From an uncultured Monoglobus sp. (lineage in GTDB: Bacteria; Bacillota; Clostridia; Monoglobales; Monoglobaceae): 64,000 bases of DNA. Where the stretch lies: contig CANRHV010000003.1 of the NCBI GenBank assembly GCA_947630505.1, forward strand, positions 17,533-81,532, written 5' to 3'. Below are positions 10,622-55,152 of this stretch, piece after piece; within the stretch, counting starts at the first letter, position 1, and each line of letters starts with the position of its first letter. The position numbers and the translations under genes were made by a program. The notes below the pieces were generated by a model. The model saw nothing but the letters and a program-made list of their open reading frames with translations. It had not been told where the DNA came from and ran no database searches.

Positions 10622-10788
10622 TAGGCTCGCCCCTTGGGGATAATCAGCAAGCTTGCTTGCGGGTTCAAAGCTATCTTTCAAAATTGCTTGCAATTTTGAC
10701 TAAGAGCAACCTTAATGCTGTCAGCGAAGCTGACTGAGAGGGGTTCCCTATTCGCTATTCACTAATCGCTAATCACTACGTTAGGAGG
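10622..10788 (+). repeat. mosaic intergenic repeat: hairpin element with internal insertion plus heptanucleotide array ending CTACGTT-AGGAGG
   Basis: GGCTCGCCCCTTGGGGA...GTCAGCgaaGCTGACTGAGAGGGGTT followed by CTATTCG CTATTCA CTAATCG CTAATCA CTACGTT AGGAGG. Confidence 0.85.
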
Positions 10789-10797
10789 TAAAATATT

Positions 10798-11241
10798 ATG
10801 TATGTAAAACAAATTTCCGTGTTTATGGAAAACAGACCCGGCAGACTTGCCGCGATAACCAAAGTATTAAAGGACAACAATATTGACATCCGCGCGATCA
10901 ACATCGCGGACACGACCGATTTCGGCATACTGAGAATGATCGTCAACGACCCGGTAAAGGCCGAGCAGGTGCTCCGCGCCAATGATATGACCGCCAACGC
11001 CGCGGACGTTATCGCTATCTCGATCGACGACAACATCGGCGCTTTCAGCGATGTTATCACGCTCCTTAAAGACAAGGATATCAGCATTGACTATATCTAC
11101 TCGTTCATAGGCGAGAAGTCGAGCAAGGCGGTTATAATAATCAAGACAAACGACCTTGAAAACTCGATTGCGGCGCTCAAAGAGGGCGGCGTGAATGTTC
11201 TGTCGGCCAAGGATGTGAACGAGCTTAATTATGCTGAATAA
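10798..11241 (+). CDS. ACT-domain protein (tandem ACT, amino-acid sensing)
   Basis: QISVFMENRPGRLAAITKVLKDNNIDIRAINIADTTDFGILRMIV with a second ACT-like half; co-directional with iorAB. Confidence 0.85.
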   Translation: MYVKQISVFMENRPGRLAAITKVLKDNNIDIRAINIADTTDFGILRMIVNDPVKAEQVLRANDMTANAADVIAISIDDNIGAFSDVITLLKDKDISIDYIYSFIGEKSSKAVIIIKTNDLENSIAALKEGGVNVLSAKDVNELNYAE

Positions 11242-17045: not shown

Positions 17046-17189
17046 AAACTCAACTCCTTGATATATTATATACGAGACGGGCGAACGCGTGATAAATTGT
17101 TGTTGACTAAGACGCCTACGTTTAGTATAATATAACAATAACAGCGGCAATTTTTATTTGCTGTTCATCTCTACGTTGGGAGAATTATT

Positions 17190-21371: not shown

Positions 21372-21545
21372 AAAAGGGCGCAAGGGACAAGAGCCCTTGC
21401 GCCAACGTAGTTATTAGGGATTAGCGAAGGGAGAAAACAGACAGGGTTCCCGAAAACGCAAGCGTTTTTGGGAAGGAGGAGCGGCCCCGGAGCGGTGAGC
21501 AAAAGCCGCTCGCGGGTTTTGCGATAAGCGAAGGGAGACGCGACG
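21372..21545. repeat. palindrome-rich intergenic block with inverted CTACGTT heptad array
   Basis: GGCGCAAGGGacaagaGCCCTTGCGCC; heptads on the minus strand CTAATCC CTAATAA CTACGTT (21404-21424); CCCGAAAACGcaaGCGTTTTTGGG-like palindrome. Confidence 0.7.
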
Positions 21546-45767: not shown

Positions 45768-45885
45768 TATTTTCTTCAGGGCAGGGTGAAAGTCCCTACC
45801 GGCGGTAAAGCCCGCGAGCCATTTTGGCATGATTCGGTGAGATTCCGAAGCCGACGGTCAAAGTCCGGATGTGAGAAGAAACTCA
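45768..45885 (+). ncRNA. FMN riboswitch (RFN element)
   Basis: TTCTTCAGGGCAGGGTGAAAGTCCCTACCGGCGGTAAAGCCCGCGAGCC...GATTCGGTGAGATTCCGAAGCCGACGGTCAAAGTCCGGATGTGAGAAGAA matches the RFN consensus. Confidence 0.97.
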
Positions 45886-48939: not shown

Positions 48940-49233
48940 GGCTCGCCCCTTGGGGAGAGCTGTCACCGAAGGTGACTGAGAGGGGTTTGTGTTCCAAATC
49001 GCATGGGAAACCCCTCTCCGTCTTTTCGCCGCTGGCGAAAATCCACCTCTCCCCAAGGGGCGAGGCAGAGCGGGCGGATAATATCCGCCCTACGGCATTT
49101 TACACACTTTGGTCGTAGGGGACGACGACCCCGGCGTCCCGGCTCCCCCCTCGGGGGGGAGCTGTCGGGCAACGCCCGACTGAGGGGGGAACCTATTCAC
49201 TATTCACCAATTTCTAATCACTACGTTAGGAGG
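48940..49233 (+). repeat. mosaic of GC-rich hairpin repeats (three copies, one inverted) and a 5-heptad array ending CTACGTT-AGGAGG
   Basis: Copies at 48940-48988 (+), 49008-49068 (-), 49141-49190 (+, variant); array CTATTCA CTATTCA CCAATTT CTAATCA CTACGTT at 49193-49227 followed by AGGAGG. Confidence 0.85.
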
Positions 49234-50704: not shown

Positions 50705-50852
50705 TATAAATGGACTTTGAGGTGGACAATTTCGTGGCATCCACACGCCGAAGGTACTGACAGGGGAAACCCGAGAGATGCAGGGGTAAGCCACGCCTGC
50801 CAAAGTTCGATTTATTCCGAGGGACCGCCTACCGGCGGTCCCTGTTTTTTTA
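50705..50852 (+). ncRNA. unassigned structured RNA candidate ending in an intrinsic terminator
   Basis: Closing stem GGACTTTG...CAAAGTTC; internal GGG-gaaa-CCC, GTGG-cat-CCAC and GCAGG...CCTGC stems; terminator GGGACCGCCtaccGGCGGTCCC-TGTTTTTTT. Confidence 0.5.
50820..50852 (+). terminator. intrinsic terminator of the ncRNA candidate
   Basis: AGGGACCGCC-tacc-GGCGGTCCCTGTTTTTTT. Confidence 0.85.
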
Positions 50853-54513: not shown

Positions 54514-54965
54514 GCGGATTTAAAGACTTGCTCAAAAGCTTCATATACGCCGGCCGCGGAATTTTTGACTGCGCCGCGCGGGAGCGGAATTTCAGAATAC
54601 ATATCGCCGCGATCGTGACGGTGACGATCTTTGCCGCGGTCTACGGGGTGACAAAAATCGAGTCGGCGATCCTCGCTTTGACTATGGCGCTTGTTGCCGG
54701 GCTTGAGGCGGTGAACACCGCGATCGAGACGGCGGTCGATCTTGAGTCAAAAGAAAAAAGCGAGACCGCAAGGCTGGCAAAAGATGCCGCGGCGGGCGCC
54801 GTGCTTATCGCGGCGGTCGGAGCGGTATTTGTGGCAGTGTTTATATTCGGCGACGCGGCGCGATTTTTCCCCGCCGTTTTGACTGTGGCCCGACATTGGT
54901 ATATCTCCGCGCCCTATATTTTGGCAATGATATTGTTTATATTTGCAATGAAGTACAAAAATTAA
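54510..54965 (+). CDS. dgkA: diacylglycerol kinase family protein
   Basis: AGRGIFDCAARERNFRIHIAAIVTVTIFAAVYGVTKIESAILALTMALVAGLEAVNTAIETAVDL. Confidence 0.9.
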   Translation: MSGFKDLLKSFIYAGRGIFDCAARERNFRIHIAAIVTVTIFAAVYGVTKIESAILALTMALVAGLEAVNTAIETAVDLESKEKSETARLAKDAAAGAVLIAAVGAVFVAVFIFGDAARFFPAVLTVARHWYISAPYILAMILFIFAMKYKN

Positions 54966-55097
54966 CAGGCTCGCCCTTGGGGAGAGCTGGCGCCGAAGGC
55001 GACTGAGAGGGGTCAACGTAGGGACTAGGGAGTAGGATCTAGAGACTAGGCTCGCCCCTTGGGGAGAGCTGGCGCCGAAGGCGACTGAGAGGGGTTT
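54966..55097 (+). repeat. two near-identical hairpin repeats flanking an inverted heptad array
   Basis: GGCTCGCCC(C)TTGGGGAGAGCTGGCGCCGAAGGCGACTGAGAGGGGT twice; between them, on the minus strand, CTAGTCT CTAGATC CTACTCC CTAGTCC CTACGTT (55015-55049). Confidence 0.9.
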
Positions 55098-55152
55098 AAA
55101 TTACCATTTAATTGGTTAACTCATTATAACGAATAAACGCAAGGAGGAATAT

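Follow-up and report, generated by a model that had tools for sequence, protein, structure and literature searches.

Bacterial MITEs such as Correia/NEMIS, RUP and ERIC are gene-less elements of about 100-200 bp with terminal inverted repeats and a long predicted hairpin, and they lie between genes in high copy number; RUP and the 155-bp form of Correia also carry stops in all frames (reviewed in PMC2229807). A 7-nt period is known from the TAACTGA heptanucleotide repeats of Beggiatoaceae, Cyanobacteria and Bacteroidetes, which are intergenic, in many cases lie immediately before a start codon or overlap a stop codon, and provide stop codons in all three frames (PMC4679880). GTAG-tagged REPs and REPINs carry GTAG at their outer end, are palindromic and are abundant between genes (PMC3733652, PMC3116915). 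The heptad arrays reported here share each of these sets of features with the system concerned. No description of this heptad-ended family was found in the open-access papers searched.

Heptad arrays in the window and in related genomes

The arrays were noticed in a 64,000-nt stretch of contig CANRHV010000003.1 from an uncultured Monoglobus sp. (the window). At 10748-10782 on the plus strand, the sequence reads exactly as the heptads CTATTCG, CTATTCA, CTAATCG, CTAATCA and CTACGTT, followed by AGGAGG. The array at 49193-49227 (plus strand) consists of CTATTCA, CTATTCA, CCAATTT, CTAATCA and CTACGTT and again runs into AGGAGG. On the minus strand, five heptads ending in CTACGTT occupy 55049-55015, and only three are present at 21424-21404. 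This is as the initial annotation had described these four places, save for the third heptad at 49193, which has lost its CTA. The annotation had also described the terminal CTACGTT as fixed and proposed a genome-wide count; such arrays recur throughout the genome and are well in excess of chance. The pattern CTAnnnnCTAnnnnCTACGTT matched three times in the window compared to none in 100 dinucleotide-preserving shuffles, and it occurred 120 times in the 2.70-Mb genome compared to 0 for a reversed-pattern control. Mirror ends finishing in CTATGTT, which had not been noted before, add 53 more in the same genome. The ends are found on both strands, and the copies are dispersed in both orientations.

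Thirteen of the 51 genomes searched for the order were positive, all of them in one family and in three of 20 genera. Within the genus of the source, 11 of the 12 members carry arrays, and the other two genera are represented by 57 copies in genome G017 and 6 in G030. The exception in the source genus, G008, is a single-contig genome that has no arrays but three IS110 copies, and it serves as a natural contrast genome.

Anatomy of the complete element

In our view, the arrays probably form the inverted-repeat termini of a short non-autonomous element, for which a MITE is the most likely identity. This filing rests on structure, distribution, and presence or absence at orthologous sites. One hundred of the array copies were taken with their flanks, and complete units were obtained by searching the DNA ahead of each array for an inverted counterpart. 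A complete unit consists of a left arm of AACATAG and inverted heptads, a short core, and a right arm of heptads ending in CTACGTT, so that terminal inverted repeats of the form AAC(A/G)TAG...CTA(C/T)GTT are present. A search for CTACGTT shows half of the picture because the left terminus is usually AACATAG, which is CTATGTT reversed. Two sequence classes were found: class A typically ends CTAATCA-CTACGTT and class B typically CTAGTCC-CTACGTT. Non-composite units measure 96-104 bp in class B and about 118-124 bp in class A, and the 96-124 bp units contain no ORFs. Among the ends of the source genome, a recognizable other arm or core is left in only a minority. In G004, in-register hybrids of classes A and B suggest, from their sequences, recombination between arms.

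The fixed length, also new here, bears on what kind of repeat this is. The initial annotation had likened the arrays to heptanucleotide short tandem repeats, which would grow and shrink by slippage. An in-register period of 7 and occasional arrays of 3, 4, 6 or 7 heptads are what such a repeat would give, but exactly five heptads (35 bp) were present in 79 of the 100 arrays. A class-A core profile built without any heptads was run on the fetched DNA of the source genome and its relatives. It recovered 49 distinct copies, 44 of which have five in-register heptads directly after the core. In these core-picked copies, the CTA is 92-100% conserved per heptad and the fifth base (T) 96%, compared to 37-84% at the free positions. 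The heptads are position-specific, with a fixed terminal one, and the array has an inverted partner on the far side of a linked core. A slippage repeat is thus a very improbable account of the arrays, although slippage may still act on existing arms.

Over its whole length, a single strand of the element is predicted to form one long hairpin. The predicted folds, made with one representative per type, reach -45.1 kcal/mol (118 nt), -38.2 kcal/mol (96 nt) and -72.6 kcal/mol (184 nt). No arm-arm covariation was detected at the free heptad positions (6.2 of 12 within vs 6.1 across, p 0.34), which gives no support for pairing over and above that of the shared consensus. In G017, which belongs to another genus (g7), units of 140-186 bp have the same ends around a different core, and some adjoin Shine-Dalgarno sequences. 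The same ends around different cores in two genera argue that the ends carry the function.

Remnants in the window and the GC-rich hairpin repeats

The array at 10748..10782 is a class-A right arm whose match to the class-A profile is confined to the final 34 positions (85-118, E 3.2e-7) and which stands here without a core or left arm. Their place is taken by a GC-rich hairpin repeat, GGCTCGCCCC...GAGAGGGGTT, which contains an inserted stretch (10624..10745, plus strand) and has many more copies across the genus. The orthologous spacer in G010 has kept the core and right arm (profile 42-118, E 2.8e-15), while G003, G004, G009 and G011 have other hairpin repeats there and the array is kept. 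The arm at 49193..49227 is also class A (profile 85-118, E 0.0036), with its third heptad worn; G011 likewise has an array upstream of the orthologue of the following gene. The array at 55015..55049 (minus strand) is, by its sequence, a class-B arm with a GC-rich hairpin repeat on both sides. At 21404..21464 (minus strand), the three heptads and a trace of core make up a worn class-A remnant (profile 55-118, E 6.5e-4), and a full 118-bp element occupies the orthologous place in G011 (E 2e-35). A further worn copy, absent from the initial annotation, has only its last heptad, at 17171..17177 (plus strand), directly before GGGAG and mutS2 (start 17190; MutS_V and Smr domains); five heptads are kept at this place in G003 and G009. 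As judged from sequence, the window arrays are shown to be mostly lone, worn right ends, remnants in which other sequence, for the most part GC-rich hairpin repeats, has taken over from the core and the second arm.

A link between arrays and hairpins had been proposed earlier, and the association is real and frequent. It depends on class, with a hairpin-like outer flank at 44 of 63 CTAGT-class ends compared to 20 of 60 CTAAT-class ends. The hairpin is, on sequence comparison, a separate repeat family that turns over independently of the arrays. At 10748, the arm is kept while the DNA from the preceding stop codon to the arm is wholly different among species whose flanking genes are about 92-95% identical. 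Several GC-rich hairpin families (GGCTCGCCCC...GAGAGGGGTT; CGTAGGGGCGGATATTATCCGCCCG) swap in spacers between close species, in the window at 10624-10745, 49146-49190 and 54960-55130 and at many other loci. At the gathering score, Rfam gave no match over an array or hairpin in the window; its matches elsewhere in the window, at 45768-45884 and 50712-50808, are an FMN riboswitch and a skipping-rope RNA.

Gene edges and reading-frame stops

The junction of array and Shine-Dalgarno sequence, which the initial annotation had singled out at 10748, is frequent. AGGAGG at 10783..10788 (plus strand) is the Shine-Dalgarno sequence of an ACT-domain gene (ACT_8) starting at 10798, and the one after 49227 belongs to ribH (start 49240; DMRL_synthase). 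Fourteen ends in the source genome run straight into a Shine-Dalgarno sequence, and the start codon then comes 13-16 nt past CTA(C/T)GTT. Among all fetched ends, the Shine-Dalgarno sequence was at offset 0 in 21 of 35 cases with a downstream gene, orthologues counted. This placement, together with the retention of the 10748 array while the remaining spacer is rewritten, would suit a 5'-leader RNA element that acts on translation, in which the array ahead of the Shine-Dalgarno sequence would be bound by a protein or would prevent the leader from closing. However, most ends do not precede a start codon, and many are at gene 3' ends or between hairpins. We therefore regard a leader RNA as an improbable explanation of the family, with a secondary role of this kind possible for a subset of ends.

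The ends also close reading frames that enter them. In the source genome, such ORFs terminate either at +1/+2, in a TAA completed by the terminal AA, or in a heptad TAG at +7, +14 or +21, though the longer-offset ORFs may include some that are not genes. Because the inward strand of each heptad provides a TAG and 7 mod 3 = 1, three heptads close all three frames within 21 nt. All frames were stopped at 21 nt in 46 of the 49 copies picked by core, which is the unbiased figure; a count of 309 of 310 ends was set aside since it is forced by the search pattern.

If the arrays are the ends of a MITE, frame stops in either end would make it tolerable for the element to insert at the edge of a gene or into a short operon spacer, in agreement with where it lies, next to stop codons and Shine-Dalgarno sequences. 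The gene-edge positions can be explained by selection that removes harmful insertions from tight operons. Target preference is a possible alternative source of them, and the flanks outside the ends begin with purines in both genera, which fits such a preference; the flank and position data do not separate the two.

Filled and empty sites

Presence and absence were compared at orthologous spacers. In the proS-cdaA spacer, eight species have an arm that begins at the proS stop codon. G005, G007 and G008 have an empty site: their proS ends in the same TAA, and a short native spacer comes after it. The spacer of the 10748 array is empty in G005, G001 and G008. These filled and empty sites in relatives indicate that, inside this genus, the element was gained at both spacers; the alternative, that three lineages lost it at each, is less simple. 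At most of the compared sites, the array is common to species that are 85-95% identical and, thus, neither recent movement nor present activity is demonstrated.

Candidates for the proposed mobilizing enzyme

In the mechanism that we propose for a MITE, the heptads would be iterated binding sites for a putative mobilizing enzyme that is now rare, lost or yet to be identified. A bolder version, which we put forward as speculative, is that the 7-nt end code does two jobs, docking one recombinase per heptad and closing the frames, so that the element would settle between stop codon and ribosome-binding site in operons; its mover would then be an enzyme not yet linked to such ends.

No autonomous copy or transposase was found in the stretches read between arms up to 2.4 kb apart, and a repeated parent could go unseen in the 119-contig assembly. 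Arms that face outward at a distance of 1.6-2.4 kb were considered as the borders of a parent and rejected, as only ordinary ORFs lie between them (glutamine synthetase-like and D-Ala-D-Ala carboxypeptidase-like, read from sequence). Also, the flanks of complete units have no recognizable target-site duplication, and no clean two-sided empty site was found.

Known enzyme families were considered in turn. IS110 was rejected as the mover, its transposase (PF01548) being absent from the source genome and its copy in G017 being inserted into an array, not bounded by arrays. That copy, an IS110-family element (PF01548, PF02371) at about 1293-2860 of G017:C26:21000-25000, interrupts the heptad array of a putative MITE at a point between CT and CT. 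In this single case, the array may have been the landing site for IS110. Tyrosine recombinases gave up to 19 matches per genome, and the best-scoring one is also present in the array-free G008. Seven were checked and none has arrays beside it, making this class uninformative as to the mover. Elsewhere, at 1761-2711 of G000:C50:16000-18712, tandemly duplicated short ORFs starting MHDIMFSLYDDEQIQKAMMRDARKEGRMEG have a heptad array between the copies.

The remaining enzyme considered is the RAYT tyrosine transposase, which would make the family a REP/REPIN-like element. Outer GTAG/CTAC tetranucleotides, a palindromic whole, the lack of a visible target duplication and a high copy number all agree with this. 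The Y1 transposase (PF01797), however, is absent from the source genome and from 9 of 11 relatives in the genus, some of which have more than 100 arrays, and the arms consist of heptads in series, where a REP would have a compact stem-loop beside GTAG. We give this explanation hardly any weight.

Comparison with known systems

Reading the arrays as ends of a MITE turns an apparent simple repeat into a defined mini-element family with a testable end code, and it provides a concrete explanation for the clustering of some repeats at stop codons and Shine-Dalgarno sequences. It also draws attention to operon spacers that are rewritten between species about 95% identical while the end of the element stays put.

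In contrast to Correia/NEMIS, RUP and ERIC, the present family has 35-bp arms, each built from five units of 7 nt; neither TA ends nor a target duplication were recognized, and no related insertion sequence was found. From REPs and REPINs it differs in that most of its genomes have no RAYT and its arms are heptad arrays instead of a compact stem-loop. The TAACTGA repeats consist of one fixed unit in numbers from 2 to 43, and neither an inverted partner nor a core is described for them (PMC4679880), whereas the arrays reported here have a fixed number of units that vary by position and form the two ends of one element. This last comparison is by features, not descent, and it suggests looking for inverted partners and cores in the unexplained TAACTGA heptads of other phyla.
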